The notes under the pieces were generated by a model. It did no database searches, had not been told where the DNA came from, and saw only the letters and a program-made list of their open reading frames with translations. The position numbers were made by a program, and so were the translations under genes. Below, one piece after another: positions 2,112 through 27,673 of a stretch of DNA of 64,000 nt (positions are counted from its first letter, which is position 1; every line of letters starts with the position of its first letter). The DNA comes from Bacteroides fragilis (GTDB lineage: Bacteria; Bacteroidota; Bacteroidia; Bacteroidales; Bacteroidaceae): positions 620,001 through 684,000 of the forward strand of contig NZ_CP018937.1 of NCBI RefSeq assembly GCF_002849695.1, given 5' to 3'.

Positions 2112-2148
2112 ATAAAAATGGGGAACGGGGCTCTGACCTCCGCTCCCC
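2112..2148 (-). terminator. Hairpin with T-rich tail between capsid and downstream genes
   Basis: On the minus strand a 9-bp stem (GGGGAGCGG with CCGTTCCCC, one G-T pair) is followed by ATTTTTATT. It lies directly downstream of the major capsid gene and would reduce read-through into the tail genes, which fits the need for more capsid than tail protein. Confidence 0.55.
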
Positions 2149-2179
2149 GGGTGGATATTGAAAAATGAAGAAAGGTGTG

Positions 2180-3229
2180 TTATTCGCTCTTTTTGTAGGC
2201 GGTATGCACCACGATCTCCGCGGGACGGACAATGTTCACGTCCATTTTCATGCGCATCTGGAAAAAGAACAGTTCGGAGTTGGCCTGCAACCGGTCAATT
2301 TTCAGAATATCCGTATCGTTGGCATAATCCACCCCCATCCAAAGATTGGAGTCCATCCCGGTGGAAAACTCGCCGAGCACCATCGTATGTTCGGGAATTC
2401 CCACGATCGGGATAATCCTCTTGCCTTTAAAGCGATAGCGGTTGACCTCGGTATTTTCGGAGTATTTGACCTGTTTGTCCGAGATATACTGGTCATACGC
2501 GTCCCAAGCATCCCATCCTACCACAAAGGCCAAGGATGTCTTCTTGCGGATTTGTTTGGGACATTTTTTCCACATCGCATAAAGAGCCGCTTCCACCGCC
2601 GCACCGTCCGTCAACTCGGTCGTTCCCGAAACGATACACTGTCCGCCGGCAACTACCTGCGTGTCCGTAGAGTTTACATTGTCGAGGATGCGTTTGACAA
2701 CACCATCAAAATACTTCTCCTTGTTGGCACCAATTTTCGTACAGCCTTCCGGTGCGGTGATTTTTGCCACCGTATCTCCGCCACGTGCGGAGGTCCATAT
2801 GGCATTACCGATGTATTCGTTTTTTTTGTCCATGAGCAAGCGAAGCATCGTGGCTTGGATTTTCGGGTCAAGTTCCCGGAATACAAGACTGCCCTCCGGT
2901 TGTGCGAAACGCCAGTACTTTTCATAGTCCCTGGGATTGAATTCAAGGTAAACCATAAAATCGGAGGGCTCAAGATACCGTTCGGTGAACTGGTACTCGT
3001 TCGAGCCGTCATCCCCTTTGGAACCGTGAATGGGCTGTGGGGTCGGCACATTGTCCTGAATGATATTGCCCAGCTTGATGGCAGGGAGTGTATAACGGTG
3101 CTGGATGCCCGTCTTGATATGGATCAGTCCTTCACGAACCGTATCATTACCCTGCACGGTATAGGTCAGCAGGTCCTCAAGAACCTCGCCGCTATATCCA
3201 TTTTGAAGAAAATTTACTGTATCGGCCAT
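2180..3229 (-). CDS. Phage major capsid protein
   Basis: 349 aa, starting at the ATG at 3229 (residues MADTVNF); in-frame codons farther upstream lie in the intergenic gap and look unused. Placed directly after the protease/scaffold gene, the invariant position for the major capsid gene. The sequence shows features common in the Bacteroidetes capsid family: an N-terminal arm, a central helix with LRLLMDKKNEYIGN, and a C-terminal beta segment ending in RPAEIVVHTAYKK. The HK97-like fold is inferred from family and context, not from a motif. Confidence 0.75.
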   Translation of the reverse strand: MADTVNFLQNGYSGEVLEDLLTYTVQGNDTVREGLIHIKTGIQHRYTLPAIKLGNIIQDNVPTPQPIHGSKGDDGSNEYQFTERYLEPSDFMVYLEFNPRDYEKYWRFAQPEGSLVFRELDPKIQATMLRLLMDKKNEYIGNAIWTSARGGDTVAKITAPEGCTKIGANKEKYFDGVVKRILDNVNSTDTQVVAGGQCIVSGTTELTDGAAVEAALYAMWKKCPKQIRKKTSLAFVVGWDAWDAYDQYISDKQVKYSENTEVNRYRFKGKRIIPIVGIPEHTMVLGEFSTGMDSNLWMGVDYANDTDILKIDRLQANSELFFFQMRMKMDVNIVRPAEIVVHTAYKKSE

Positions 3230-3343
3230 TGTCGTTTTAAGTTTTTCCGTTGAAATGTGAAACTCGGCCGACTGGCGGATACTTGTGTTTCCGCGCGAGG
3301 CCTGCGGCCTCCGGCATGTCAATTAAGATCGGATGTCTGCCTG

Positions 3344-4582
3344 TCAGAGTTTGCGGAACTTGAAATCCGCACCGACTACCTCGGCCACCTTCTCGGCCAT
3401 CATCTGCTCGGCCGTCTTGGTCGCCTCCGCCGTGGCCTGGATGTTGGCCGGGTCATTGGCGATTTCTTTGGAGATGATCTCACGCGCGGGGATGGAAGCC
3501 AGTGTTTTTTCCGCCAACTCGAAGTTGGCCTCCGCCATCTCCACCCATTGCGCTTTTGCCTCACGGTCAATCTTGCCTTCGCCAATGGCGTTCTCCACCA
3601 GCGTTTCGATGCGGGATGTCCTCTCGTCCTTCTCCTTTTGTTCGTAAGTGGAGAGACGTGCCGTAGCAGCGGACAGATCCTTCTGCAAGTTCCGGATTGC
3701 AGCATCCTTACCGGCTATGACCGTTTGTGCGTCACTCAGGGCTTTCTGCACCTCTTTGTATTTAGGTTCCATCGCTGCCAGTTCGGAGATACGGGCCATC
3801 ACGTCCTTGACTTCTCCGTCCTTCATGCCCAGCGAGGCGGCAATCGCCCCGTACTCAAAACCTTGTGTCTTGTTTTCGTTTGCCATATCGTTTTCTGTTT
3901 CTGTAAGAGTAGGAAAAATATCCTCAAAAGGTTTATTCCCCTCACTGACGCGGTCCATCAACTCCTGAATGGCCGCCGTGTCCGCCAGTCCGGCAATCTC
4001 GTCATGTACTTTGCGACAGAGCTGCTTCGATGTACGAATAATGTTCTCTGATGGAATGATGCCCGCTTTTACGGCAGCCTGCGCATCAAAATAAGTCCCG
4101 TCCTTGCCGGCCTGCCCGTCCATAATGGCGCGCACATGCTCCTTGGTCAAACCGAACCTTTTCCGATAAATCGTTTCTATCTGCCTGGTGAAAGCCAACA
4201 GCATGTCCGAAGGCTCTTCCCCGTCATTGTCCGGCAGTATAGGATTATGGATCATTAAAATGGCGTAGTCCCGCATAAGGGAACGTTTGCCCGCAGCCCA
4301 GATAATGGAAGCCATTGACGCCGCCACGCCCTCGATGACACATTCTGTGTCCACTTTGGCATTGGCGATGGTGGAATAAGTGGACATGCCGTAAAGGACA
4401 CTGCCACCTTCCGAATTGATTAACACGCGGATACAGGATGGACGGATAATATTTTCAAGAAAGTCGAACTCGTCATTGAACCGGGAGGTGGTTTCTTCCG
4501 TTACGCGGCCGAAGAAACGGATAACGGCAGGTTCACCCGTTTTTGCTTCACCCACCACATATTGCAATTCTTCTGTACTCAT
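3344..4582 (-). CDS. ClpP-like prohead protease fused to scaffold
   Basis: 412 aa in two parts. Residues 1-200 are a ClpP/Clp-like serine protease: nucleophile Ser89 in GVAASMASI, His112 in MIHNPIL, and the oxyanion glycines in INSEGGSV. Residues 230-400 are a charged coiled-coil scaffold (KYKEVQKALSDAQ, then heptad-like ATARLSTYEQKEK). An internal ATG at 3886 (MANENKTQG) lies exactly at the domain boundary and could give a separate scaffold product, as in lambda C/Nu3 and Mu I/Z. It processes and shapes the procapsid before DNA packaging. The capsid gene follows after 114 bp. Confidence 0.8.
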   Translation of the reverse strand: MSTEELQYVVGEAKTGEPAVIRFFGRVTEETTSRFNDEFDFLENIIRPSCIRVLINSEGGSVLYGMSTYSTIANAKVDTECVIEGVAASMASIIWAAGKRSLMRDYAILMIHNPILPDNDGEEPSDMLLAFTRQIETIYRKRFGLTKEHVRAIMDGQAGKDGTYFDAQAAVKAGIIPSENIIRTSKQLCRKVHDEIAGLADTAAIQELMDRVSEGNKPFEDIFPTLTETENDMANENKTQGFEYGAIAASLGMKDGEVKDVMARISELAAMEPKYKEVQKALSDAQTVIAGKDAAIRNLQKDLSAATARLSTYEQKEKDERTSRIETLVENAIGEGKIDREAKAQWVEMAEANFELAEKTLASIPAREIISKEIANDPANIQATAEATKTAEQMMAEKVAEVVGADFKFRKL

Positions 4583-4619
4583 GTTTTTCTTTTTATGGAA
4601 GAGTAGGCGTTAGACAAGA

Positions 4620-4754
4620 TTATGGGTTAAAAACAGTTCCGGACGGGCTGTCCACCTGCACGCCACGCAACTTTAAGATCATTTTACAAGACATTTGGAT
4701 ATGGTAGCGGGACTTACTTCCCGGAATAATGACATTTAATCGAAAAATGACCAT
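4620..4754 (-). CDS. Small hypothetical protein (44 aa)
   Basis: An ATG-initiated 44-aa frame in the 245-bp gap between the neck gene and the protease gene, on the same strand. It is basic and beta-like (MVIFRLNVII ... LKLRGVQV) and ends in VFNP. No family recognised. It would be the only coding content of this gap; support is limited to strand, position and open length. Confidence 0.35.
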   Translation of the reverse strand: MVIFRLNVIIPGSKSRYHIQMSCKMILKLRGVQVDSPSGTVFNP

Positions 4755-4827
4755 GCATTGTTTGAACGGACGAAGCGCCGGACCACCCTTTCAGATACCC
4801 ATGCCGTGAATGTGCAAGGCCCCACCA

Positions 4828-5568
4828 TCAAATGCCGGAAATCTCATCCTTGTTTCCGCCATGTACGCCTGTTTCCACCGCCTGACTGAATCCTGTCGCC
4901 TTATCATAGCCCGGTTCAGGGTGATAGCCGTGCCCGCCGCCGTCATGCTGCGGCGCATCGCCATGCTGCGTGAAAGGCGGCATGACCAGATAGCGCTTTA
5001 CCCAGTCCCTGTATTTCCATGCGGAAGACTCCCGGAACCATACCTCATAGTCCACCCAATACGCCTGGAGCATATTAGTGGTGGTCGGCATGTCAAAATA
5101 GGTCAGGTTACACCGTTCGTTAAGGGCGGGTTCCCTGTTCTTGGCATCCTGAATGGCCACGTTCAGCCTCTGGAATACGATGAATGACTCGCATTCCCTA
5201 TCCTCGTCCCCGTTGTTGAGCGTATTAAGAATGAAGCGTACACGCATGGTGGCGCGCCCCTCGCCGATTCTCTGCTGTTGCACCAGGTACCTCACGTTGA
5301 CGAAATGGATAAAGACGGCCGGAAAAACGGTCTCATATTCCGTGTTTTCCCCACGTACGATACGGGCGAACTGTCCGTTGTCAATGGCTATGGTCTTGAA
5401 AAAGGGAGGTGAGAGCGGATCGTCCGGGTCCTCTTTTATGGTCTGTATGGCCCGCTTCACCGCCTGATACATGTTCACAAACGGATTTTCGGACACTTCT
5501 TCCGGCAGGCTTTCCTGCACGGGAGCCGGTTGATGCGGTTGTCCTACGGAATGCTTGTCCTTTATCAT
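4828..5568 (-). CDS. Putative neck / tail terminator protein
   Basis: 246 aa. The N-terminal 30 residues are Pro/Gln-rich; the core (30-190) has the alpha/beta make-up of tail-terminator proteins (QAVKRAIQTIKED, then AVFIHFVNVRYLVQQQRIG and RVRFILNT). The C-terminus is His/Gly-rich and low in complexity. It starts inside the stop of the preceding morphogenesis gene (4-nt ATGA overlap). Role inferred from gene order between head-morphogenesis and protease genes. Confidence 0.5.
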   Translation of the reverse strand: MIKDKHSVGQPHQPAPVQESLPEEVSENPFVNMYQAVKRAIQTIKEDPDDPLSPPFFKTIAIDNGQFARIVRGENTEYETVFPAVFIHFVNVRYLVQQQRIGEGRATMRVRFILNTLNNGDEDRECESFIVFQRLNVAIQDAKNREPALNERCNLTYFDMPTTTNMLQAYWVDYEVWFRESSAWKYRDWVKRYLVMPPFTQHGDAPQHDGGGHGYHPEPGYDKATGFSQAVETGVHGGNKDEISGI

Positions 5569-6149
5569 ACGCCCGGGAATCCTTTAAAAATCATATCCAT
5601 AAAATTATCAGCGATGTAATCCTCTATCTTCGGGGAGAAACCTATGAACTGGCGGTGTACGGGACGCCGTGAAGAATGCTGGTTTACGGTGTACAGACCA
5701 AATTTCGGGTCGGTATTGTGTACGGCGGCATAGTGCCCGTAGCGGTTCTTGCTGCGTCCCCGTTTGCCCTTAATCGGAATGCTCTTCTCGGTAGTCCATA
5801 TTGAGTAGCGGGCCCCTTTACGGAATATCCGGCTGCCGTCGCTGCGCCGCCCCCTGATATCGGTCCTGTCCGCTTCTCCCTTGATACCTGCGGCAAGAGC
5901 TCCCGTGTCATTCATGACCGGATGTGTAAACTTCCGCCCCCAACGGGAGGTACGTGGCGTCCATGTGCCGCCGCAGAAACCTCCCGAGGGAAAGGAGGCA
6001 AGAAACTGCTGCCGGCTGTACTGTCCGGCCTCGGTGGCAAAATCAAACGTGTTACCCGCCAGACGGCTGGGCAGGAACGGATCCCAGCCTCCCTTTCCCC
6101 TTTCCCTCACCCAATGGGTGCAAAATTCATCGAGTGTTATCTTTTGCAT
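5565..6149 (-). CDS. Phage virion morphogenesis protein (Mu gpG-like)
   Basis: 194 aa, strongly basic, with a central IPIKGKRGRSKNRYG stretch and C-terminal PVHRQFIGFSPKIEDYI. The ending resembles the tail-completion/virion-morphogenesis family represented by Mu gpG, where an RxFLG/RQFIG motif precedes a final helix. It overlaps the F-like head gene by 23 bp upstream and the neck gene by 4 bp downstream, so it is translationally coupled on both sides. Confidence 0.6.
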   Translation of the reverse strand: MQKITLDEFCTHWVRERGKGGWDPFLPSRLAGNTFDFATEAGQYSRQQFLASFPSGGFCGGTWTPRTSRWGRKFTHPVMNDTGALAAGIKGEADRTDIRGRRSDGSRIFRKGARYSIWTTEKSIPIKGKRGRSKNRYGHYAAVHNTDPKFGLYTVNQHSSRRPVHRQFIGFSPKIEDYIADNFMDMIFKGFPGV

Positions 6150-6990
6150 GAAATTTTTCTTTTATCCGTTTTACAATTTTGGTCATGTGCTCCGGCAGCG
6201 GCATGTCGAAATAGCGGTGTGCCCTGGAAAAAATGCGTCCACCCGTGGCCAGACTCTCCCGGAAGACAGGATCGATCCTCTTCCTGTAATTTTCCGGAAC
6301 GGGCAGTGCAGCCCGTACCGCGGCGAACCCGTCCGCTACCAGAAAACAACGGCATCCCCACTCAATGGGCGGTATCAACTCCGGCGGGAATTCCGATTTG
6401 CGGTACGAGAGCCCCTCGAGGGACAGATGCCACGCCCGCACCCGTTCGTCTCCCTGCGTCATATAGGTCAGCACCGTGTCCGTATCCACCGTGAGCCACC
6501 ATGCCGCCATCGAAGCGGCGAAAAGCACCTGGCTGTTCTCTCTCTCCGCATAAATAAAGTTATACCGGCGGCATATCTCCCCGTATGTCTCCATATCCCG
6601 TTCATCCACTGTCTCAGGCATATCCTTGAACATCGCATACTCTTCGGCCGCCGCAAAATCAACCAGGTTGTCTATGGCAGCGATGAGAATGTCACGCTGC
6701 AGCCTCTCTCTCTCCGTCGTAAAGCTATTATGGTTTCTCAGAATCTCCAATGCACGGTCCAGGTCAATACGTAAACCTGTCAACGCTTTGTCTATCAGGA
6801 AAGAAGCACGCAAAGTGATGATGTCCTCCATAATATCGAGACGTTCGGCACTGTTTTCATAGTGGAGAATGAACCTGCGGAATGCCTCAAATATGACACG
6901 GTACTCCTTTTCCGTACCGGATTCCTGAAAAGCGGACGCCCTGACGGCTCCATATGGAACACCGTTTGGGAACGGAAGCCGGGCCATCAC
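6127..6990 (-). CDS. Phage head morphogenesis protein (Mu gpF-like)
   Basis: 287 aa. The last 100 residues match the minor head protein family of Mu F / SPP1 gp7: a RVRAWHLSLEGL segment, then PPIEWGCRCFLV with the characteristic W-x-C-R-C. This family sits at the portal vertex and assists head assembly and DNA ejection. The gene starts within the 3' end of the portal gene (4-nt overlap), the normal portal-then-F order. Confidence 0.75.
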   Translation of the reverse strand: MMARLPFPNGVPYGAVRASAFQESGTEKEYRVIFEAFRRFILHYENSAERLDIMEDIITLRASFLIDKALTGLRIDLDRALEILRNHNSFTTERERLQRDILIAAIDNLVDFAAAEEYAMFKDMPETVDERDMETYGEICRRYNFIYAERENSQVLFAASMAAWWLTVDTDTVLTYMTQGDERVRAWHLSLEGLSYRKSEFPPELIPPIEWGCRCFLVADGFAAVRAALPVPENYRKRIDPVFRESLATGGRIFSRAHRYFDMPLPEHMTKIVKRIKEKFHAKDNTR

Positions 6991-8309
6991 TCCGTTCCCC
7001 GCAAAAAATTTTCAACCTTACTCCCCCGGGGATGCCCGTAACGTCGGAAATACTCTTCGTCTGACATGATACCGCGGTCGTTATGGCCGGGAATGTACCG
7101 GCCGCCATCCGCTTCAAGCCCCATAACCGGGATGGCATTAAGCTGCTTGCCCACATTGATTCCGAACTCCTTCTCGATTTCGTCAGCCGCAACCTCGTAT
7201 TTTTCTGTAATGAGCGAATAGAGCCTGATACGGTCCTCGTTATTCATCTCTATCCGGTTTGAATACCTGAATTCCAGTCCTGCAGGAATATATCCGATGG
7301 CTACCAGCCGGGGGATTATCTCCTCATTCATGACATTCTCGATATATCTGCGGTAAACCTCGATACGGTCACGGAAAATATCCTGATGCGCCTTTGTAGA
7401 ACCCACATACGACTGCATCCCTCCGGCCATGGACTCGGAACCGAGCACAAGGTTGGCAACCTCCTTGTTGACAAAGTCAATCAGTCCGGTATATATCTTT
7501 TCCGAATTGGACATGGTGAAGGTCTTGATGTCCACCTCATCCTCGATGCCGGTGACCACGACCTTGTTCTGCGCCGCATTGGCTATTTCACCGGCCAGCC
7601 GTTTGCGGTCGGCATTGCTCTCACTGACCGTCTTTCCATGAATGATCGGTTGTCCGTAGGTGTGGGAGAAGTTAACATAATTGGCCACCGTGAACTTTTT
7701 GGCGAGTATCAATGGCGTTGTGGCAGAAAAAAGCCCAAGGTCACCCGAGGTTACCAGCACATAACAACGGCGGTAGGCCGGATTGCGCAAATCCCAATGC
7801 GGCTCCCATAGACCCTGCCTTTTCAGTACAACTCTCTGGTCCGGCAATACATTGCGCCGTTCGATGATGTTGACTTCCGCCAACCTGCCTGTTCCGGAAT
7901 CAACATACGGCATGATTTCGAGTAAAGTATACCCGTAAAGCTTGGCTTCCACGATACCCTTGATTATCTTGTCAAATTGCGAGCCCTGTATCTTTTGCGA
8001 GTTCACCACGTCTTTGGTATATTTCCCTTTCCCGTTCACATGCGCAAGCATATAACGGTCGCCGAGTATCTGGCTCTCCAAAGTTTCAACCACCGACCGT
8101 ATATGCGCATCCTGCTGCAGGCAGGCCTCGTACAGGTCAATGAGCCTGGCACGGTCATCAAGGATGTATCCTGAACTTATATCCTGGCGGCATGAACGGT
8201 AGCGGTTGTTGCGTTCGATTTCGCGGACATACTCCTGAATGGTTTTCTTGGAAGTCCTGAATATGCTCTCCAAAAGCTCCCCGTTGAATGAATTGTCCGA
8301 TGTCACCAT
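6987..8309 (-). CDS. Phage portal protein (DUF935, Mu gp29-like)
   Basis: 440 aa. The sequence shows the DUF935 pattern: DARIRSVVETL-type segment (here QDAHIRSVVETLESQIL), GYTLLEIMPYVDS, an INVR-like RLAEVNIIERRNVLPDQR, and LGSESMAGGMQSYVGSTKAHQDIF. The portal forms the dodecameric entry ring for DNA. It is the first gene of the leftward virion operon; a terminase normally precedes it, but none is present here because the divergent rightward cluster begins instead. Confidence 0.8.
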   Translation of the reverse strand: MVTSDNSFNGELLESIFRTSKKTIQEYVREIERNNRYRSCRQDISSGYILDDRARLIDLYEACLQQDAHIRSVVETLESQILGDRYMLAHVNGKGKYTKDVVNSQKIQGSQFDKIIKGIVEAKLYGYTLLEIMPYVDSGTGRLAEVNIIERRNVLPDQRVVLKRQGLWEPHWDLRNPAYRRCYVLVTSGDLGLFSATTPLILAKKFTVANYVNFSHTYGQPIIHGKTVSESNADRKRLAGEIANAAQNKVVVTGIEDEVDIKTFTMSNSEKIYTGLIDFVNKEVANLVLGSESMAGGMQSYVGSTKAHQDIFRDRIEVYRRYIENVMNEEIIPRLVAIGYIPAGLEFRYSNRIEMNNEDRIRLYSLITEKYEVAADEIEKEFGINVGKQLNAIPVMGLEADGGRYIPGHNDRGIMSDEEYFRRYGHPRGSKVENFLRGTE

Positions 8310-8596
8310 ATTTTTTTTGCTTTTTTACCTAAAGAGTAGAGAGCAGGCGGGAGAGAAGTTTTGTACAAAAAAAAGTATATGAAAAACAGGCTTCTTAATG
8401 CTTGATTTGCAAAACGAAATAATACAACCAAATATATAGATATTTCGATTTGAATTTTCTGTAAATCGCTTATTATCAACGATAATCAATTAAATAAAAA
8501 CGAAAAATCAGTCTTGTTTTTTGTGATATTTCACCGTAAAAAGATATATATTTGCACAATGTTAAATACAAATTTGAAAACAATGGAAAAAAGAAC
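8310..8596. promoter_or_regulatory. Divergent control region between virion and early modules
   Basis: A 287-bp AT-rich gap between the leftward portal gene and the rightward cluster. A Bacteroides-type -7 box (TATATTTG, 8547-8554) with a TTTG at 8520-8523 faces right, about 40 bp before the first ATG; the 23-nt spacing is longer than the usual 19-21. I find no equally good box facing left. A repressor controlling both directions would be expected to bind here. Confidence 0.55.
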
Positions 8597-9040
8597 ATGA
8601 AAGAAGAAAAGATTCCCTGCCGGACAGTCCGGTACAGGGAATTCCCCGATTTGCTTTTTGGAACGTCACAGGAGGACGGACCGGTCTATTTCGACGCAAC
8701 ACATTTTATCCGGGCCCGAGGAGACGCACACCGGCACAACGTCCGTGACTTCCGCGCCTCTTTCCATCATTGGATAACAGCGCTGACGGATGTTTACGGA
8801 ATAGACAAGGAAAACATGGTTATCCGTGACGAGGCGTCGGGACATCTGTTAATTGATGAATGTCTGGCTCTATTATTTGTCGTTTACATCGATCCTGCAT
8901 TCGGTGCCTACCTTCTGGAGCGCATGTCCGAATTGCTGTCCGGTGGATTTACCGTTTCAGACACTTGGCTGGTACAGACTGCCGGCCTTAGATTTACAAA
9001 GGAGGAATTAACGCAAATATTAGGACAACATGAGACGTAG
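8597..9040 (+). CDS. Hypothetical protein, first gene of rightward cluster
   Basis: 147 aa. The frame opens upstream at a TTG that lies inside the promoter's -7 box, so the ATG at 8597 (MKEEKIPC) is chosen. Contains a segment VYFDATHFIRARGD followed by a His/Arg-rich helix. The FDATHFIRA run loosely recalls the start of KilA-N-type domains, but this is too weak for a call. The next gene begins within its last 11 bases. Confidence 0.6.
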   Translation: MKEEKIPCRTVRYREFPDLLFGTSQEDGPVYFDATHFIRARGDAHRHNVRDFRASFHHWITALTDVYGIDKENMVIRDEASGHLLIDECLALLFVVYIDPAFGAYLLERMSELLSGGFTVSDTWLVQTAGLRFTKEELTQILGQHET

Positions 9041-9398
9041 TACATTTAAACGGCCAAAAATGGTGCTCATTTTCAACGGGGCACAGGTTCTTGTCGCCAT
9101 TACGCGCTCGCTACATAGTGCGGCGGAACTGACAAAAGGCAACTTGCAGGCCATTTCATTTTGTTGCACGGGCAAGTACGTATGCAGCGGCGGGCTCTAT
9201 TTCAGACATCTGCATCCGGATGTCGAGATCGAACTGTCCGACCTTGGCACGCTGATGCTGAAGGATTATGATGCCCTTTGCGGTGAGAAACGTACATACT
9301 ATCCGGTGCGCAAAATGGCCCACAAGCGGGCCTTGCTTGAGAATAAACATAAATCTGACAACAAAAAGAAAGGAGGAAATGATTATGAGAGAGAATAG
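9030..9398 (+). CDS. Hypothetical protein with Cys-containing core
   Basis: 122 aa. The core has FCCTGKYVCSGGLYFRHLHP and then an acidic EIELSDLGTLML segment; the C-terminus is Lys-rich (KHKSDNKKKGG). Overlaps the preceding gene by 11 bp and the following one by 20 bp, hence part of the antirepressor transcript. No family recognised; a small nucleic-acid-binding protein is possible from its charge. Confidence 0.6.
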   Translation: MRRSTFKRPKMVLIFNGAQVLVAITRSLHSAAELTKGNLQAISFCCTGKYVCSGGLYFRHLHPDVEIELSDLGTLMLKDYDALCGEKRTYYPVRKMAHKRALLENKHKSDNKKKGGNDYERE

Positions 9399-10521
9399 GA
9401 ACATTCCGTTTCGGGACTGGAACATACGGGTTTCCCGAAACCACAGCGGCCATCTGCACATCTGTGCCATGGACGTATGTAACATACTTAAACGGAGCGA
9501 GCTGCTTGAAGACGGGGCCATCGCCCGTATCTGCCCGACGGCATTGAGGATCAGTTTCCGGAAGAACGGACGGGAGCAGTGGAGTTTCCGGCCCATCGAT
9601 ATGCGCAGGCTTTTGCGGACGGTGCGCAAGGAGACTATTATACCCCGCGACATGCTTGACGAGCTGGAGGCATGGGGCAACCAGCTTCTGGAACTGGAGT
9701 CTGATGATCTGCACTCCGCGGTCCAGAATGACACAATCCTTCATTTCATGGAAGGGTTTCCTGTCACATTCCGGCGCATCGGTGACAAGCTGATGGTCAA
9801 CGCCACACAGATCACGATGCATTTCGGGAAGATTCCATCCGAGTGGCTCCGCATTGCCTCTACAGATATGCTCCGCAGGGAGATGGCGGGTAACGGACGT
9901 ACCGGAAAGTATGAGTCGCAAATCTTCACCACGCGTGGACGTGGACATGGGGCGACCTGGCTGGAATCCCCCCTTATCATACCGTTGGTCCGGTGGGTCA
10001 CACCGGAAGACCTGTCCCTGGCGGAATGGTGTGGTGAAGCTATCGAAAAGCTGTCCATGAAACGCCCGACGACCGCCATTCGTGAACATCCGAAGCCGGC
10101 GCCCCCCAATATGCCTTGCCTGGATTGTCCCATGCCGCAAGATATGGAGGCGGCAAAGGAACTGATCCGGGAACTACGGAAAGTGGTGCGCGACTCCATG
10201 CCCAAAATTGTCTTCTACGAGGAGTTCATCGAGAACAGGGACTGGTTCAAGAGCACACGTATCGCCGACGAGCTCGGTATCTCCCCGCGACAGCTGCATC
10301 AGTTTCTTGCCGAGGAAGGAATCTGCAAGTACGAAAAACGGCAGTGGGTGGTCTTCCCCTCCTGCCGGGCATGGCAATGTGATGTCCCCTACACATGGGA
10401 AAACAGCCGGGGAAAGGTATATACCTTCGGTTCGACAAAACGTTGGACGCAGGCCGGCCGTGAATGTATCATAGAGTTATGGCGGAAAAAGAATCCGGAA
10501 TACCATTTACCGGGCGCATAA
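9379..10521 (+). CDS. KilA-N / KilAC phage antirepressor-type protein
   Basis: 380 aa, starting at the ATG at 9379, which is preceded by a clear AGGAGG at 9371 - rare in this genome and decisive for the start. Residues 126-222 form a KilA-N domain (FRRIGDKLMVNATQI, FGKIPSEWL, then a WLESPLIIPLVRW helix). Residues 275-365 are a KilAC/ANT domain (IADELGISPRQLHQFLAEEG, KYEKRQWVV). This pairing is the classic DNA-binding antirepressor of temperate phages, which relieves lysogenic repression. Placed third in the operon that diverges from the virion genes, a fitting position for a lysis-lysogeny regulator. Confidence 0.8.
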   Translation: MIMRENRNIPFRDWNIRVSRNHSGHLHICAMDVCNILKRSELLEDGAIARICPTALRISFRKNGREQWSFRPIDMRRLLRTVRKETIIPRDMLDELEAWGNQLLELESDDLHSAVQNDTILHFMEGFPVTFRRIGDKLMVNATQITMHFGKIPSEWLRIASTDMLRREMAGNGRTGKYESQIFTTRGRGHGATWLESPLIIPLVRWVTPEDLSLAEWCGEAIEKLSMKRPTTAIREHPKPAPPNMPCLDCPMPQDMEAAKELIRELRKVVRDSMPKIVFYEEFIENRDWFKSTRIADELGISPRQLHQFLAEEGICKYEKRQWVVFPSCRAWQCDVPYTWENSRGKVYTFGSTKRWTQAGRECIIELWRKKNPEYHLPGA

Positions 10522-13087: not shown

Positions 13088-14740
13088 CACATTATTCAGC
13101 AAAAAGACAGGCGTTTAAACACCAATTCTCAGGATTCTTATACAAAATCACAAAAAACATACAAAAAAGTCAAGAATCATACACATGCATTTCCATATAT
13201 ATTCTATATGGTTAATAAATAGACTATTACAGCGTAATCCCTACCGATGAAAATTCCATTTGAACATGCTGTTTTACAGAATCCAACAAGCCGTTTCTTA
13301 CCGGTACAATCAAGAATATATACCAAGAGCCGGATACTTTGGCACTATATATTTATGCCCACATTTCCGATGTTCCCCAAAACCGGCCTTACCCGCAAGA
13401 AACGAAAATCTTCTGAAAGTCTGTATATCCATGAAAACCGGAAGTATGTGTATCTGTGGCTTGGGAATGTCTTATAAATGCCGGAATAACAGTTATGATT
13501 GTATTTAAAACCGCTGTAAGTCCATGTCCCCGTTATTATATATTTTTTGACGTCCGCTTACAATTTTATGGCAGGACCCCATATTGGATCGTTTTAAAAA
13601 ACGGGATTTGGAAAAATGCCCCGAGGATAGAAATCGAATCCGCACCTTGGAGTACACCCACCCGGTTCTTTTTAAAATTGTTACTATATTAATTTACAAT
13701 AAGTTACTTGTTTTACTTTTATATAAAGTAAACATAAAACAGACTTTGTTATTATTATTAGTTACAAAATGAAAGCAATATATATTTTTTCATTCTGTTT
13801 TTATCTAATTTGGATATTTATTCAGACCTATACCATTGATAATTAAATATATAGTAAAACTTTCATTTTAATATACATATAGAAACGGGCTTTTTTCGTT
13901 TTTTGCAATGAAAAATTTTTTTTTCGCAAAAGCTATTATTTTATATATTGTTGATATTCAATGAATTAATAATTCTCTTCGCGCGTATGCGTACCATATT
14001 CGCAAAAGGGGTGTTTTTGAAACAATCTAAAAAAAATTCTCAAAAAGTTTTGCAGTTCTGAAAAACAGTTTTATAATAGTCATGTACTCGAAAGCCAAAC
14101 AAACGGCAAACAAGTACGGAGAAAAAAAGAAAAAAAATAGATAACTAAAAAACAGATTTAAAAAACAGAAAAACAAAGACCGCCAAGAGCGAGAAACAAA
14201 AAGCCCTTTTTGTGGGAAACCTATTTTTGAGGCTTGGAAAATCAAAAATTCGCTTGTTCGCTTTGGAGCGATTAAATAGGGTGTTAAATAACCACACCGA
14301 GCAGGACTACAAACCAATGTAGCAAGTTGGAACGGCTAAAAACGTGTTTTTAGACCGCATACACAAAGCACGCAAATTTGGGAGTGCAAGTTGTATGAAA
14401 AAGGACGTGTAAGAATAATGCCATAATTGCGCCCAGTGCGCTCGGAATAAAATGCACGATAGCGGTAAAAACTATCCGTATAGGGGACGCCGGTAAATGT
14501 ATATGCCAATGCTATGCGCAATACCCGGCTCGGCAAAACGCCTAAATGCCTCACCTTAAAGTTATCTGCCGGATTGGAAAAGATCCGGGACGTGCCAAAG
14601 AAACGTCTTGTCGAAATTGGAGTAAGCGAGCGTTTGCCATGATGCGAAGTTACAGGTATTTGTCATTTAACATTGCAAATATAGTATTTTTTTGCGAGCA
14701 AACTATAGGGCACGTTAAGAAAGTTGCGGAAATGAATTAA
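13088..14740. other. 1.65-kb non-coding stretch with AT-rich core
   Basis: No convincing gene on either strand; short open frames here have no start context, no coding-like composition and overlap one another. About 13690-13980 is extremely AT-rich with homopolymer runs and a near palindrome (TTTACTTTTATATAAAGTAAA type, around 13713). About 14030-14730 is mixed in composition with small inverted repeats such as GCAC...GTGC around 14370. A good -7 box faces left at 14681-14673. Replication origin, attachment or long non-coding RNA are all possible; the sequence alone does not decide. Confidence 0.5.
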
Positions 14741-21787: not shown

Positions 21788-22444
21788 ATGGACAGATATG
21801 ATTTCATAAGATTCGGGGAACAGGTACGCTGGTACAACGAAAGTGAAGACCTGATGGAAACCATGCAGGTGTGCTGCCCCGTATATCCTCCCGTGCAGGG
21901 CGACACAAGGGTACAGCTGGTATCCGCCGGAATAGAGGCGCTGCAATCGGGATGCGGGTCGGAAAAGACGGTCAGGGCCTCGCAGCTCGTGCCCTTCATA
22001 AGCCACTTCGGCAGGGGATACTGGGAGGCTCTCACACAGGCAGCGGACAATGGGGCAGGCACGGACCTGCTCGAAGCGATGATCAGAAACAGCTGTCTGG
22101 GCCTGGGAGAACAGATATGCCTGCTTTGTGGCAAGGTGTCGGCAAGCGTGCACGCTGCATTCTGCAGGGTATATCCCGAAGAGGGAAGCCTGCTCGACGT
22201 CATTGAGTGGCAGGGAAAGGAGTACCCCATAAGGAAGCTGACACTGTTCCGGGGGACGGAACAGGAAATGGAAACAACCGTATCGGTCACCGCATTGCAG
22301 AGGAAGCTCATCGGACGCAGGAGCGGCGCACCCGTTTCAAAAGCCGCAGAAAGGATCGATGAAGGTATTTATTATTACTGTGAACAGGAAAAGGAGTTCC
22401 TCCTCCCGCAAGAAGGCCTCACCGCATTTGTAGAAAGGGGATGA
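21788..22444 (+). CDS. Hypothetical protein
   Basis: 218 aa. Five Cys are scattered (VCCPVYPP, SCLGLGEQICLLCGK); the region 90-125 looks helical. Contains EWQGKEYPIRKLTLFRGTEQ and a late YYYCEQEKEFLLP. Transcribed with the reverse-transcriptase module downstream, 43 bp before the next ATG. No family recognised. Confidence 0.6.
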   Translation: MDRYDFIRFGEQVRWYNESEDLMETMQVCCPVYPPVQGDTRVQLVSAGIEALQSGCGSEKTVRASQLVPFISHFGRGYWEALTQAADNGAGTDLLEAMIRNSCLGLGEQICLLCGKVSASVHAAFCRVYPEEGSLLDVIEWQGKEYPIRKLTLFRGTEQEMETTVSVTALQRKLIGRRSGAPVSKAAERIDEGIYYYCEQEKEFLLPQEGLTAFVERG

Positions 22445-22487
22445 GACAGGGAAATGATACGATATACACAGATAAAGACAATTGAAA

Positions 22488-23114
22488 ATGAAAAAAGAAC
22501 CGAGTAAAACGCAAGAAAACGGCATATCGGATACCGGCATTCCCATGCCGGACGACATCCTGCCGAGACTTGTCAAGGAAAAAGATGCCGGCAAAGAATA
22601 TATGGCCGCTACCCGTGAAAAACTTATGCGCCTGCTCAAGGAATACCTTGGGCAAAAATACGGGCGGAAAGTCCGCTTCATCCTTCCGACGGGTGATCCG
22701 GCCGGTGACCTGCTGGACGGGAAGGGATTCTATCCCTGTTCGGTGACCATATACGACAAGTACGGTTTTGCAGCCTGCAGCAGTGCCGTATCGGTAGAGC
22801 TGACTGCGGAAGGAAAAATTCTCATCCCTACCGACGAGGCCGGAAAAATCCACGACGCGGAAGAGTACCTCTCAAATGACGACCTGCTGTCCTTGTGCGG
22901 AACGGTAGAAGAATACGAACGGCTGTTGCCTGAAATCCGCAAGGAACTGGCAGAAAACGGGAACTGGAAAGAATTTGCCCGAAGAATGCTGGAGGAAGAA
23001 TTCCCGCAGGCAAAAGTTGAGGTACGGGAGGAGTTTATCCGGGACTGCTGGGAGAACCTGCAGACAGAAAGTTATAACCTCCAACACTTTGAACGGTATT
23101 GTCAGGAAAAATAA
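22488..23114 (+). CDS. Hypothetical protein upstream of reverse transcriptase
   Basis: 208 aa from the ATG at 22488. Residues 40-130 contain LMRLLKEYLGQKYGRKVRFILPTGDPAGDLL and YPCSVTIYDKYGFAACSSAV; the second half is an acidic helical bundle (VEEYERLLPEIRKELAENG). Its stop lies 17 bp before the reverse transcriptase ATG, so the two are almost certainly co-transcribed and it may be a partner protein. No family recognised. Confidence 0.65.
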   Translation: MKKEPSKTQENGISDTGIPMPDDILPRLVKEKDAGKEYMAATREKLMRLLKEYLGQKYGRKVRFILPTGDPAGDLLDGKGFYPCSVTIYDKYGFAACSSAVSVELTAEGKILIPTDEAGKIHDAEEYLSNDDLLSLCGTVEEYERLLPEIRKELAENGNWKEFARRMLEEEFPQAKVEVREEFIRDCWENLQTESYNLQHFERYCQEK

Positions 23115-23131
23115 TAAAAAATATACGAACC

Positions 23132-24397
23132 ATGTCAGACAAGATATTACAGATGTTCTTCGACATCGGCCGGTGGAAAAAGGCCATTGAGAAAGGCGTG
23201 CTGAAAGACATCCGGAAAGACCAGCTTATCCGGCTGACCGACGAGCATACCCGTATGGCCATGGCCGATGCCATGATACAGGGGAAGTACGAAATCGCTC
23301 CCCCGCATACCGCACAGATACCGAAGGAGAACGGCGAGTTCCGTACGGTATACATCAACGAGCCCGTCGACCGGGTAGTGCTGGGCATTGCCAACGACCT
23401 GCTCTTTGAACTCATGCCGGAAATGGTACACCCCTCGTGTAAGTCCTACCAAAGCGGTATCGGCTGTGGCAGCGTAGTCACCGAGGCCAGCCGCCGGATA
23501 GCGGAAACGAGAGGCGGCGGCATTCTGGGCTGGAAGTCGGACCTGAGCAAATATTTCGATAGTGTGCCGATACGGTACATTGACGAGGCGTTCGACAAGG
23601 TCGAGGCCAGACACGGACGCTCCTCCTTAATTGACGTGCTCAGGAAGTACTACCACAACGATCTTTACTTCGATGAAGACAACCGCCTTCAAGCCAAGTA
23701 CCAGTCCCTCAAACAGGGCTGTCCCGTGGCAAGCTGGCTGGCCGACGTGCTGCTCCATGATCTCGACGGGGAACTCTCAGGAATGACAGGCTACTACATC
23801 CGATACTCGGACGACATGCTGTTCATCGGGAAAGACTACGGGAAAGCAATGCAAGTGCTGGAACAAAGGCTCGGCGAGAAAAGCATGAAGCTCAACCCGA
23901 AGAAGGTGGAATACCTGATGTCCGACCGCTGGTTCAAGTTTCTCGGGTTCAGCATCAAGGGGGACATGATCTCCCCTTCGGCAAGCCGTATCAAGACTTT
24001 TCAGAAAGAGATTGAACGCCGCACGATCCGCAATCCCCGCACTACCCCGGCAAAAGCGGTCAATGCAGTCAACCGCTACCTGTATAAGGGCAACGGGGAG
24101 TTCAGCTGGGCGACCCAGGTGCTTCCGGTATGCAATGTCCGCAGAGACCTTGACGAACTGAACAAGTTCGTGATGGACTGCCTGCGGGCCGTAAGTACGG
24201 GCAAGCGGAAGGTAGGCGGTCTGGGATATGTCAGTACCGGGCAGGACGGCTGCATTGTCCGGGGCAAAGGGCGCAACGTGAAGGCGAACCGGGGCAAGAC
24301 CCCGGGAATCATTCCGGGCTACCTGACCATAGGATGCATGCGCGGCGCCTTATTGACGAGCCGGGCGGTGTACAATACGCTGGTAGCATCGTTATAG
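23132..24397 (+). CDS. Reverse transcriptase of unusual class, array-associated
   Basis: 421 aa from the ATG at 23132 (the frame opens at a TTG 33 nt earlier, inside the preceding gene). RNA-directed DNA polymerase fold in order: RTVYINEPVDRVVL (motif 1, about 71-84), SYQSGIGCGSVV (motif 2), first catalytic Asp137 in WKSDLSKYFD, QGCP at 195-198, active site RYSDD with Asp227/228, and LGF at 271-273. After about 285 comes a basic extension with RRTIRNPRTTPAKAV and a closing GYLTIGCMRGALLTSRAVYNTL that I do not recognise. No endonuclease, protease or RNase H domain. Group II introns and DGRs mostly use YADD. It is followed at once by a structured RNA array (24388-25266), its likely template or partner. 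Confidence 0.9.
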   Translation: MSDKILQMFFDIGRWKKAIEKGVLKDIRKDQLIRLTDEHTRMAMADAMIQGKYEIAPPHTAQIPKENGEFRTVYINEPVDRVVLGIANDLLFELMPEMVHPSCKSYQSGIGCGSVVTEASRRIAETRGGGILGWKSDLSKYFDSVPIRYIDEAFDKVEARHGRSSLIDVLRKYYHNDLYFDEDNRLQAKYQSLKQGCPVASWLADVLLHDLDGELSGMTGYYIRYSDDMLFIGKDYGKAMQVLEQRLGEKSMKLNPKKVEYLMSDRWFKFLGFSIKGDMISPSASRIKTFQKEIERRTIRNPRTTPAKAVNAVNRYLYKGNGEFSWATQVLPVCNVRRDLDELNKFVMDCLRAVSTGKRKVGGLGYVSTGQDGCIVRGKGRNVKANRGKTPGIIPGYLTIGCMRGALLTSRAVYNTLVASL

Positions 24398-24443
24398 GGC
24401 ATGCCGGGCACACGGCAGAACGGGTGAACGGGCAGGTTATTCA
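24388..24443 (+). repeat. Array core 0, decayed, overlapping the reverse transcriptase stop
   Basis: ATCG, TATAG and ATGCCGG appear in core order but with bases missing between them; a CAGAACGGG segment follows, as AGCAC-GGRA does in the other linkers. The reverse transcriptase stop codon lies inside it. The weakest copy. Confidence 0.5.
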
Positions 24444-24616
24444 ACGTTACAGGCTTATAACCAGAATCCATATAGGAATTAACCGGTCTAACAGCCGGTT
24501 AATCCCACCTTGATTCTGGCTGCGCCTGTAATGTATCGGGAAATTAGAGTCATGTGCCGTCTGTCCCGCACCCGTTACCGGAGCACACCGGGAAAGTTCA
24601 AGGAATAGGTTTGGGC
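24444..24616 (+). repeat. Array unit 1
   Basis: Hairpin 24444-24534: outer stem of 11 bp (ACGTTACAGGC with GCCTGTAATGT, one G-U), middle CCAGAATC/GATTCTGG, inner ATTAACCGG/CCGGTTAAT with an 8-nt loop. Core ATCGG-GAAAT-TAGAG-TC-ATGTGCC begins at the very next base, 24535; AGCAC follows at 24582. Confidence 0.85.
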
Positions 24617-24793
24617 ATCCCGCGTACCGACGTCTTCTTTCCGAGTCTGAAGGCGGCTGACCGTCGCCTTCGGACTCCGCAGAAGACCCATACGCGGGAT
24701 ACATCGGAAGCATAAAGCCATGTGCCGGTATTATGAGAACTTTCAGTCTTTTCCAGCACGGGAACGTGCGGTTCGGGGGAATGGATTCAGCCC
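24617..24793 (+). repeat. Array unit 2
   Basis: Hairpin 24617-24700: ATCCCGCGTA/TACGCGGGAT, then GTCTTCT/AGAAGAC, then a 13-bp GAGTCTGAAGGCG stem (one G-U). Core at 24703: ATCGG-AAGCA-TAAAG-CC-ATGTGCC. The linker also has a GCACG-GGAA-CGTGC tetraloop hairpin and CGGTTCGGGGG. Confidence 0.85.
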
Positions 24794-24964
24794 GCTGTCT
24801 CCGATAAGCCCGTATCGCGCCGTCGTATCCCTAGCGTCATACGACGGCGCCATTCCGGCTTCCGCCACAGCAGACATCGGACCTGTAAAGGAACGTGCCG
24901 GCATTCCGGGAACCGCAAAAAGAACAGCACAGGACAAAGGGGGCAAGGCCGGGATTTCAACAGA
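24794..24964 (+). repeat. Array unit 3
   Basis: Hairpin 24794-24871: GCTGT/ACAGC, AAGCC/GGCTT, and a perfect 12-bp GCGCCGTCGTAT stem with a 10-nt loop. Core at 24876: ATCGG-ACCTG-TAAAG-GA-ACGTGCC; AGCAC follows at 24926. Confidence 0.85.
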
Positions 24965-25136
24965 GCCGCGATTTACACGGCTGGAACCTTTGTCATCTCC
25001 TGCTAACACGACAGATGACACAGGGTCCAGCCGTACTCGCGGCCCGTATCAGGTTTTTAAAGGGATGTGCCGTCCGGATGAGCCCCCTGAACAGAAGGTA
25101 GCGCGACCGCATATGCACGAGAGACCCAAATTCAAG
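24965..25136 (+). repeat. Array unit 4
   Basis: Hairpin 24965-25043: GCCGCGA/TCGCGGC outside, then arms 24978-24998 and 25013-25033 (CGGCTGG/CCAGCCG, TCATCT/AGATGA, with two mismatches between). Core at 25048: ATCAG-GTTTT-TAAAG-GG-ATGTGCC. An alternative pairing GACAAAGG/CCTTTGTC (24933 with 24987) competes with this hairpin. Confidence 0.8.
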
Positions 25137-25266
25137 ATACAGTATTCAAGCTTGGTCCTGAGCCAGGCTACTACCTGGTTCAGGACCGAAGTCCTACTGT
25201 ATTTATCAGGACTATAAAGATACGCGCCAGGGGTTTGAGTGCCATTAATTGTAAACAGGTGAGAAA
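25137..25266 (+). repeat. Array unit 5, short 3' end
   Basis: Hairpin 25137-25202: ATACAGTA/TACTGTAT outside, 14-bp GGTCCTGAGCCAGG stem (one G-U) with a 6-nt loop. Core at 25205: ATCAG-GACTA-TAAAG-AT-ACGCGCC. The linker is truncated at the next gene's ATG. Confidence 0.8.
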
Positions 25267-25746
25267 ATGGAAGATATTTACCGAGAAACCGTCACCGCCA
25301 TAGAGAACGGCGCAAATTTCCGGATTGATTTCCAGTCCAGAAGTTTAAAAGTAAACGGGAGACACATGATACGGAACGGCAGGCATGATGGCGCTCCGTG
25401 GTTGCCGAAGTACGGCTGCGGGGATTTTTTCACGGATGTGGAGGATCTGTACCGCCGCTATAAACATTCGATACCATCGGAGCGCAGCCAGAGCAAGTCC
25501 CGCCGGTATTTCATGGCATTGCCCGAAAGTGACCTCGAGGACGGGGACATGCTGTATGGGCAACACCGGGACACCGCTCAATTCGAGCTGGAATTCTATA
25601 TCCTCTGCCGGATTATGGGCGGGTTCACATGGAATCCCGAAACGATGGGCAAATGGTTCTGGCAAAGCGAAAAAGACAAGGACCTGGTGATACTCAGAGA
25701 ATGGGTGGAGCCCGGAAGTAATCAACTATTAACAAATTCACAATGA
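25267..25746 (+). CDS. Hypothetical protein between array parts
   Basis: 159 aa, starting right after the array. Contains GANFRIDFQSRSLKVNGRHMI, a SERSQSKSRRYFMALPESDL segment, and a Trp-rich end (GGFTWNPETMGKWFWQSEKD). Overlaps the next gene by 4 nt. Lying between array unit 5 and the distal unit, it may belong to the reverse-transcriptase module. No family recognised. Confidence 0.65.
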   Translation: MEDIYRETVTAIENGANFRIDFQSRSLKVNGRHMIRNGRHDGAPWLPKYGCGDFFTDVEDLYRRYKHSIPSERSQSKSRRYFMALPESDLEDGDMLYGQHRDTAQFELEFYILCRIMGGFTWNPETMGKWFWQSEKDKDLVILREWVEPGSNQLLTNSQ

Positions 25747-26831
25747 GCAGAAAGAAACAAGAAACAAAAATCCTGTGCCCCGGATGCGGCACGGAATTCG
25801 CCATCGCGGACAAGGAATTTACCGCCACGGGCATCGTTATCGGCAAGAATTCGGGTTTGGGCACGGTCTATCCGGCGGTGGCCGGTCATAATCCCCCTGC
25901 CGGACTTCCCAAAGGGGCGCGCGAGCGTATCGAGGCGCTCCGAGGCGCCGGTGTGGACGTGAGCTGCCTGTTCGCCATGCAGGGAGCCGGGGGTGGCGAG
26001 TACGTCGCCTCCAACAAGGACGGGAAACTTACCATCCTGGATGACAACGACCCGATATTCGGCTGCATCATGGCACAGGGTACCGTTCCCAACAACCGCC
26101 TCTTCCGCCGGTGGGTCATGGCGCAGATGTTCCACATGATGTCATATACGCATCACTGCCGGAAAGAGCCGGCAGGGGTGACCGAGATGATCCACAGGAA
26201 AGGCTATGATTACCAGTGGAAAATGCTCCTGAACGAGCTACACGCCCAGATGAAGATGGAACACAAGGACATCACAGGTTTTGTAGAGAGAAACCGCTGG
26301 TTCAACCGTGATGTGGTTCTGGCCATCGCGAGCGACTATGTCAGCGCGCTGAAAAAACACGTGGGTAACCTGGAAACAAGAAAATGCAAGGGAGTTCCCT
26401 ACAAGCGTGTATACGGCCGTAATATTTTCGTGGAGGACCTGCAATCCAAACTGTACTACCCGCTTTCCATCGCGATAACCCACATCAGGCACGCGCTGGA
26501 CGCCGCACAGCTTTACAACGCGGTCAGACAGTTCAATGACCGCCGTATCCGGCTGCCATGGGATACTCCTCAAAGCAAGGCATGGATGGACGCCTATAAG
26601 GGCGCCGGGGCGTTCTTTACCATGCAGAACCTGATCCGTTTCCACGGCTGCACAGCCATTGACGATTCGGGGCGCAGGCTGGACAAGTACCAGTCACTGG
26701 CGTTCCTGTCAGCAAAAGCGGAAGAGTATAAAAACGGAGAAGGATGGCGGTTGCTGGCAGTCCTGAAAAAAATGCTGGCGGACAACAATATCAACATCAA
26801 GAAGAAGATGGCGGCATGGCGTAAGAAGTAG
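25743..26831 (+). CDS. Zinc-ribbon-start hypothetical protein of the reverse-transcriptase module
   Basis: 362 aa. Begins with a CPGCG knuckle (residues 13-17) typical of half a zinc ribbon, though a second Cys pair is not evident. The rest is helical and basic, with FRRWVMAQMFHMMSYTHHC, then LLNELHAQMKMEHKDI and a C-terminal MLADNNINIKKKMAAWRKK that could bind RNA or DNA. Translationally coupled to the 25267 gene. Its final codons run into a possible linker of the distal array unit. No family recognised. Confidence 0.65.
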   Translation: MSRKKQETKILCPGCGTEFAIADKEFTATGIVIGKNSGLGTVYPAVAGHNPPAGLPKGARERIEALRGAGVDVSCLFAMQGAGGGEYVASNKDGKLTILDDNDPIFGCIMAQGTVPNNRLFRRWVMAQMFHMMSYTHHCRKEPAGVTEMIHRKGYDYQWKMLLNELHAQMKMEHKDITGFVERNRWFNRDVVLAIASDYVSALKKHVGNLETRKCKGVPYKRVYGRNIFVEDLQSKLYYPLSIAITHIRHALDAAQLYNAVRQFNDRRIRLPWDTPQSKAWMDAYKGAGAFFTMQNLIRFHGCTAIDDSGRRLDKYQSLAFLSAKAEEYKNGEGWRLLAVLKKMLADNNINIKKKMAAWRKK

Positions 26832-27033
26832 GCCGTCATCTCCATCCGCCCGGTAGGCGGCACGGTGTGGCGGGTCAGAATAAATCAGTACTCCCTCCAT
26901 TGAAATGATGCTCATCCCTGTTAACACAAGATGAGCTTCTTTCAATGGAGGCATTACATCGAAAACGTAAAGAGATGCCCCCGTTTGACGACCACACCAC
27001 TATTCTAATCAAAACGACATAATCCTTTATACG
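26832..27033 (+). ncRNA. Distal unit 6 of the reverse-transcriptase array
   Basis: A hairpin at 26894-26951 (CCTCCATTGAAA/TTTCAATGGAGG and GCTCAT/ATGAGC) is followed at 26958 by the array core, ATCGA-AAACG-TAAAG-AG-ATGCCCC, with the same 5-nt and 2-nt spacing as in the main array. Upstream, CGGCACGG and later GAATAAATCAG resemble the linker before other hairpins. The remainder up to 27033 shows nothing more. Confidence 0.75.
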
Positions 27034-27219
27034 ATGAGCAAGAAACAACTACGACGCAGGGCTTACCTGCTGTACCGGTTACGAAAACAGGGTATCCGAT
27101 GCCTGACGCGCTGCCGGACCATCTTCTATCCTTACGGGGAGGATCCGAAATCAGTACCGTACATCCGCAGCCTGATAAGCGAGTTCCATTTCCTGGTCCA
27201 ATTTGAAATATCCGCCTGA
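27034..27219 (+). CDS. Small basic hypothetical protein
   Basis: 61 aa, with a very basic N-terminus (KKQLRRRAYLLYRLRKQG). Not recognised. Confidence 0.5.
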   Translation: MSKKQLRRRAYLLYRLRKQGIRCLTRCRTIFYPYGEDPKSVPYIRSLISEFHFLVQFEISA

Positions 27220-27220
27220 C

Positions 27221-27373
27221 ATGCAACCGGGAGACATTGCAACATTGAAAGTGCCCTACAAGGGCTATCGCCGCATAGAGCTGCTGGAACGGCTCCAATA
27301 CACCTGGCTGGTACGCATCTGTGAGAGCGGGAAGGAAATCGAGGTCTATGAAGACGAGTTCGAAACGGATTAA
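27221..27373 (+). CDS. Small SH3-like hypothetical protein (50 aa)
   Basis: Starts one base after the previous stop. MQPGDIATLKVPYKGYRRI ... YTWLVRICESGKEIEVYEDEFE reads as a small beta-barrel of the kind that opens with GD.A.L. Coding strength comes from tight packing and a full open frame between two genes. Confidence 0.55.
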   Translation: MQPGDIATLKVPYKGYRRIELLERLQYTWLVRICESGKEIEVYEDEFETD

Positions 27374-27385
27374 AGGTACGGAACA

Positions 27386-27673
27386 ATGAAAGGAGAACAA
27401 CAGGAAGAACGCGTACCGAACTTCATCGGTAATGCCGTCATTATCCTCACGGCCAGCCATCTGGGCTGCAGGGTGGAGATGCTCGCCACCGCACAGGAGG
27501 TGTGGCGGACGAAACGCCTGCCCGAGGCGGTGCTGCTGGGCATGTACGAGAAGGCCGCACGCGAGGCCGTGTCGGCTGTCTGGAAGAGAGGCCTGGCGGA
27601 ACAGGCGGACCGTCTCGGAGAGATATTTTACAAGACGGGGGAATTTCCTCCGGACAAAAAACGGGAACACTAA
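27386..27673 (+). CDS. Small hypothetical protein
   Basis: 95 aa, helical: NAVIILTASHLGCRVEML, then LPEAVLLGMYEKAAREAVSA. Not recognised. Confidence 0.55.
   Translation: MKGEQQEERVPNFIGNAVIILTASHLGCRVEMLATAQEVWRTKRLPEAVLLGMYEKAAREAVSAVWKRGLAEQADRLGEIFYKTGEFPPDKKREH

Follow-up and report, generated by a model that had tools for sequence, protein, structure and literature searches.

A conserved chain of predicted pseudoknot RNA domains beside a phage-borne UG27 reverse transcriptase, likely its RNA partner

Genes and carrier of the UG27 locus

The window (the whole stretch of DNA analysed, 64,000 nucleotides of a Bacteroides fragilis contig) is, judged by its gene content, a prophage, since it carries a tail sheath, a maturation protease, a Mu-type portal, an antirepressor, and an integrase (Table 1). 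Inside it, a reverse transcriptase (RT) gene is followed by five RNA units of ~171 nt, the genes RTas346 and RTas337, and a diverged sixth unit. The same UG27 system occurs in Bacteroides phage BS-TP1 (PQ571274.1, our locus L104), where the RT is gp79, RTas346 is gp80 (42% identity), and RTas337 is gp82 (44%). A 1.35 kb unannotated gap in this sequenced phage gives four unit matches and holds structured RNA. One prophage, the window, and one phage, BS-TP1, are the carriers identified.

RT_UG27 is the top PADLOC RT profile for the window enzyme, matching over its whole length, with RT_UG26 as runner-up at 120.7 bits; the RT_UG17 profile scores 72.6 bits versus 761 for UG27. The YSDD motif is present in all 27 aligned RT sequences, the window RT among them. 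The PADLOC models RT_UG27, RTas346, and RTas337, which are protein models only, cover nearly the full length of the three window genes. Because of these matches the neighbourhood is catalogued as DRT-type, yet the family is unstudied in the literature searched: papers combining 'UG27' and 'reverse transcriptase' concern only plants and HIV, and the term UG27 is absent from the available parts of the DRT10, DRT3, and DRT9 papers. No RNA partner of UG27 was found in the same literature, although Mestre et al. 2022, reportedly a survey of the UG/Abi group, may mention one.

The two partner proteins are conserved across the homologous loci, and tblastn detects both in 60 of 61. The exception, L045, carries a UG27 RT with units (7258-8213; model R2, filters off), and neither partner was found there by tblastn with the window proteins as queries. 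Pfam Zn_ribbon_4 matches RTas337 only below its cut-off. At E 0.001, 122 relatives of RTas346 are found, and none of their names is informative. The predicted models (pLDDT 86 for RTas346 and 80 for RTas337) have no PDB match at E 0.001.

Table 1. Features of the UG27 locus and its carrier; positions refer to the window unless stated otherwise
Feature	Position	Strand	Support
UG27 reverse transcriptase, 421 aa, YSDD intact	23132..24397	+	PADLOC RT_UG27 761.2 bits, 6.6e-230; Pfam RVT_1
RNA unit 1: SL0 loop strand GCACA 24408-24412; P3 ~24445-24533; core 24535-24558; pseudoknot strand 24553-24557	24403..24577	+	R1 68.1 bits; P3 z -8.3
RNA unit 2: SL0 loop strand 24583-24587; P3 ~24617-24700; core 24703-24726	24578..24743	+	R1 82.5 bits; z -9.5
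RNA unit 3: SL0 loop strand GCACG 24756-24760, complementary to CGTGC 24894-24898; P3 ~24794-24871; core 24876-24899; 3' end approximate	24744..24917	+	R1 97.5 bits; z -4.9
RNA unit 4: SL0 loop strand 24927-24931; P3 ~24965-25045; core 25048-25071; ends approximate	24918..25090	+	R1 85.4 bits (whole-genome search, contig 1 bases 644908-645102); z -7.6
RNA unit 5: SL0 loop strand GCGCG 25101-25105, complementary to CGCGC 25223-25227; P3 ~25137-25202; core 25205-25228; ends approximate	25091..25245	+	R2 91.1 bits; z -7.9
RTas346, 159 aa	25267..25746	+	PADLOC RTas346 1.2e-67
RTas337, 362 aa, N-terminus zinc-ribbon-like	25743..26831	+	PADLOC RTas337 8.8e-155
Distal RNA unit 6, diverged: P3 26888-26957; core 26958-26981 (ATGCCCC variant); ends approximate	26845..27000	+	R2 E 0.0077; core with 2 mismatches; z -7.6
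Prophage structural and integration genes (tail sheath, protease, Mu-type portal, antirepressor, integrase, methyltransferase)	415-10521 and 54603-57417
Bacteroidales-2 RNA, RF02943, within prophage region	14194-14595	-	417 bits
FopS family sRNA, RF04319, between integrase and methyltransferase genes	56057-56128	-
Host FtsK	from 58847
BS-TP1 UG27 RT, gp79, annotated 'tail protein'	L104 12001-13263

Layout of the RNA array

A first-pass annotation had described five conserved cores, each preceded by a long hairpin. The cores are exact, with zero mismatches, and shuffled sequences fold much less well than the hairpins (z from -4.9 to -9.5). When up to two mismatches are allowed, the core pattern gives one further match, that of the distal unit, against a mean of 0.07 matches in 100 shuffles; the hairpin before it also folds far better than shuffles, and model R1 does not match this unit at E 0.1. 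A distal unit stands at the equivalent place in at least eight other loci. Behind RTas337, a core lies within 900 nt in 25 of 61 loci, and at 120-130 nt in 17 of these; none was seen in the close relatives L026 and L052. Cores are spaced by 170.7 ± 10.8 nt (82 intervals below 230 nt), and most loci hold several units, with 0 to 7 cores before RTas346 under the strict filter.

None of the 29 gaps between RT and RTas346 is open end to end in any plus-strand frame, with at least two stops in each when counted frame by frame, the longest single runs being 330 aa (L010) and 188 aa (window); the reading of the region as RNA and not as an intact protein frame stands. The sole array-wide direct repeat (repeat listing for 22000-27500) is 29 nt long in three copies, two of them 66 and 76% identical to the reference copy; a CRISPR array, which needs identical repeats with spacers, was rejected on this ground.

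Unit 1 begins ~5 nt past the RT stop codon, so RT and array are probably co-transcribed. This position directly 3' of the RT stop, and that of the array between genes, would also suit a structure in the mRNA that regulates the operon's translation or decay purely in cis, with no role in trans. We consider that explanation very unlikely, because the units are not confined to one place: L012 has four cores 3' of RTas337 and none detected in the gap from RT to RTas346, L056 combines five behind RTas337 with units in front, and in L053 just one core precedes RTas346. The distal cores of L012 and L056 argue for a trans-acting RNA, and the pseudoknot covariation and slot identity set out below exceed what an attenuator would show.

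Predicted fold of the unit and its pseudoknot

Folding with the core held open gives the listed units a common plan: a small 5' hairpin (SL0), a basal stem, a TTCAA-like junction, the long hairpin P3, the core, and the returning basal stem. The basal stem has bulges that are CAAGG-like on the 5' side and TGAG-like on the 3' side. The core, with the consensus ATCR-N6-TARAG-NN-AYGYGYC, is unpaired in this basic fold. An unguided column scan of 50 aligned units recovers SL0, P1, and P3 together with a fourth helix, between the SL0 loop and the 3' part of the core. The SL0 loop is thus predicted to pair with the YGYGY strand of the core in its own unit, forming a covarying pseudoknot.

Three lines of evidence bear on this pseudoknot. 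First, 104 of 132 units have an exact 5-nt complement in their SL0 region and the other 28 lack it, whereas permuting the cores leaves 34.9 ± 4.1 (2000 permutations, maximum 48, in which relatedness among units remains). Among units with non-consensus cores the complement is exact in 55 of 69, versus 12.1 ± 2.9 permuted. In the window, all five array units have the exact pseudoknot; the distal unit has no exact 5-nt partner, although its loop could pair using a G-U. Second, the partner belongs to the same unit: the core matches its own SL0 in 51 cases and that of the previous unit in 5 (of 65), and its own in 48 versus that of the next unit in 5 (of 65). Third, the pairing covaries. In alignment A1 (50 units), from which the tested structure was itself derived, 83.8% of cells are paired versus 58.2 ± 1.0 when shuffled and 30-43% when slid, all 24 pairs are changed on both sides somewhere, and the pseudoknot helix is 99.2% paired. 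In alignment A5 (104 units), made with a model whose base pairs leave out the pseudoknot, that helix is 96.4% paired against a chance level of 79.9 ± 0.8, and 104 cells are changed on both sides versus 28.3 ± 3.8; one of the five measures, the number of pairs changed on both sides, lies at chance (5 versus 5.0).

These results fit the first-pass suggestion that the core is a recognition element, because it contributes the 3' strand of the covarying pseudoknot. By contrast, the N6 within the core appears, by eye, unconserved even among same-slot units, so that no fixed cDNA product is predicted.

Linkage of the units to UG27

Homologous loci numbered 60 (13 + 47), to which two more were added. 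A covariance-model search had been proposed in the first pass as the way to see whether such units accompany homologous RTs, and they do. Model R1 finds units in 59 of 63 UG27 loci and model R2, with filters off, in the other four, although many of the matched loci had served to train the two models and many loci are near-duplicates. R1 finds no unit in 27 loci of other RTs, which are short (2.4-4.1 kb), and R2 finds none there with filters on or off. All 193 R1 hits, in 90 sources, lie on the RT strand, and the phage records L104 and L105, outside the R1 training set, carry units too. Among 393 genomes of the window's order, R1 with strict filters marks three (13 hits), and the UG27 RT profile at E 1e-40 marks the same three. 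By sequence comparison, a structured RNA array is tied to the UG27 RT with RTas346 and RTas337. The covariation and the presence of units in all 63 UG27 loci but in none of the 27 controls bear out the earlier claim of selected RNA structure linked to this RT; the basal stem, the 5' SL0 pseudoknot, the sixth unit, the UG27 family with its gene partners, and the prophage go beyond that annotation.

The solved RTs nearest to the window enzyme in sequence are group II intron enzymes, which come first among the solved-structure matches of its profile, followed by DRT9 (9nlv, 9.3e-16) and DRT2 (2.2e-09). Its best NCBIfam match is a group II RT/maturase at 92.6 bits, under a cut-off of 300. Such a match could be expected if the locus were a degenerate retroelement, built of group II intron pieces or an integron-like run of cassettes, but we find this scarcely credible: no Rfam intron match appears at the gathering threshold or at E 5; even distant loci retain the same structure, order, and spacing; and covariation and slot conservation speak against decay. 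A group II intron was rejected on the NCBIfam score and the lack of an Rfam intron match, and the first-pass view that the region is no decayed intron accords with the Rfam result.

P3 hairpins are conserved slot by slot

The first-pass annotation held that the hairpins share nothing in sequence. Within a locus this is right, as none of 124 units in 25 loci has a P3 resembling another P3 of its own locus (blastn, E 0.001); between loci it does not hold, and P3 is homologous slot by slot. The best inter-locus match of a P3 is to the same slot in 66 of the 81 units having one, some of the 25 loci being close relatives. Same-slot P3 hairpins are on average 73% identical across loci (60-88%, 47 pairs). 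The average is 53% both between different slots (43-62%, 142 pairs) and among the P3 hairpins of one locus (30 pairs). With pairs involving L026 and L002/L004 set aside, the four-fold sites of the RT genes in those loci show no more than 34-48% agreement, so that the P3 sequence itself is under constraint. The hairpins are therefore not free cargo, and the proposal that they are exchangeable is not supported. Five-unit arrays end in a unit of the same P3 family as the seventh unit of seven-unit arrays, which implies that units are gained or lost in mid-array. The P3 of window unit 2 and that of L023 unit 2 are 88% identical and the RT four-fold sites of the two loci only 43%, perhaps through transfer or exchange of a single unit. 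In the apical loops of P3, the motif UANC, which was picked after inspection of the loops, occurs in 37 of 95 units (21 loci) versus 8.7 ± 2.7 after shuffling of each loop's letters, as if the tips of the arms dock or are bound.

A retron msd is bounded by conserved elements. P3 is likewise long, stable, different in each unit, conserved by slot, and bounded by conserved elements, as it would be if the array were cut into units and the RT copied each P3 into a different hairpin DNA, a multiplex set of retron-like templates. This reading is unlikely, given that the shared apical UANC suits a structural arm better than a free template and that the RT is of another type: it scores 40.9 bits with the retron St85 RT family, the sole retron model listed, whose cut-off is 235, and the best retron RT among the PADLOC matches listed reaches 1e-09, far below UG27. 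A retron-type RT was rejected on these scores.

ToxI repeats are short and near-identical. The units are ~171 nt long and divergent, the locus includes an RT, and RTas346 has no PDB match as described above, all of which counts against an RNA antitoxin array whose units would be processed by RTas346 or RTas337 and neutralise them, as ToxI pseudoknots neutralise ToxN. ToxN is absent among the 27 Foldseek matches listed for RTas346 and in a second look, although RTas346 may still have a ToxN fold. Type III repeats were rejected on the 170.7-nt spacing and on P3 hairpins that are unlike within a locus. We therefore judge an antitoxin role quite improbable, even though multiple pseudoknot RNA repeats beside a protein gene, in the available description, mark type III systems (PMC8860590).

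A model of a probable UG27 RNA partner

Sequence comparison establishes the repeated fold, the covarying within-unit pseudoknot, the UG27/RTas346/RTas337 linkage, and the slot-wise conservation of P3. We lean, with modest confidence, towards reading the array as a conserved chain of predicted pseudoknot RNA domains beside a phage-borne UG27 RT and as the likely RNA partner of this RT. Each domain is predicted to bind one copy of the enzyme, so that one transcript would line up several. In a UG27 ribonucleoprotein the array would then most likely supply the RNA, as DRT-type ncRNA domains linked covalently into a chain. Each unit may be the counterpart of one whole DRT2, DRT9, or DRT10 ncRNA, joined to its neighbours in one strand, and the number of units may set the size of the RT-RNA assembly, which DRT9 builds from separate RNAs. 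As unit number is variable (0 to 7), an exact hexamer is not implied.

Within each unit, P3 may be the stable stem-loop that bounds the template, like SL5 of DRT10, and the unpaired ATCR-N6-TARAG strand that immediately follows P3 may sit at the active site, like the DRT10 template loop. A bolder form of the model, which we offer tentatively and as possible, is that the UG27 RT works on a covalent ncRNA polymer in which unit number fixes assembly size, each unit carries a variable template hexamer of its own, flanked by ATCR and TARAG, and the distinct P3 arms prevent misfolding or recombination between neighbours. More speculatively, the cDNA, or the complex acting via RTas346/RTas337, could protect the lysogen against other phages.

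UG27 thereby gains a concrete candidate RNA partner, with defined ends, pairs that can be broken and restored, and a natural series of unit numbers, so that RNA control of RT assembly or templating in this superfamily becomes directly testable. In the literature searched, no tandem layout of RNA domains, each predicted to bind one RT copy, was found for any reverse transcriptase. If the covalent polymer were real, it would be the first multi-domain tandem guide or template RNA among reverse transcriptases, and Bacteroidales phages would be spreading it.

Comparison with known systems

Like the DRT systems with an ncRNA, UG27 has a conserved structured RNA beside its RT. In the accessible portions of the sources, DRT2, DRT3, DRT9, and DRT10 each have one ncRNA species (PMC13213688, PMC12632851); unlike the single ncRNA per system of DRT2, DRT9, and DRT10, several units are present in most UG27 loci. 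DRT10 (UG17), as far as the text available describes it, has a 137 nt structured ncRNA by the RT, a SLATT accessory protein, and a stable stem-loop, SL5, immediately 5' of a template loop that is poorly conserved (PMC12632851). UG27 resembles it in combining a UG RT with an adjacent structured RNA and accessory proteins, in having a stable stem-loop 5' of an unpaired strand, and in length, one unit being comparable to the whole DRT10 ncRNA. It differs in having a chain of units, and RTas346 and RTas337 belong to other families than SLATT.

In the part of the DRT9 report available, the ncRNA is both scaffold and template in a D3 hexamer, with separate RNA copies joined by RNA-RNA contacts, and has a universally conserved poly-U tract (PMC12483538). 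UG27 shares with DRT9 a UG RT of detectable homology; by contrast, its units are joined in one strand and their consensus has no poly-U tract. The DRT2 ncRNA, in the accessible text, is pseudoknotted and lies beside the RT (PMC12039810), and the RT-ncRNA complex is a functional monomer (PMC12483538); the UG27 array shares the predicted pseudoknot and the position but is not a single ncRNA. ToxIN (type III), as described in the portion available, also has a repeated pseudoknot RNA beside a protein gene (PMC8860590), and UG27 departs from it in its RT operon, unit length, and divergent units, with no recognised endoribonuclease in the locus. On these comparisons, the simplest reading would be that UG27 has joined DRT-like RNAs into one chain.
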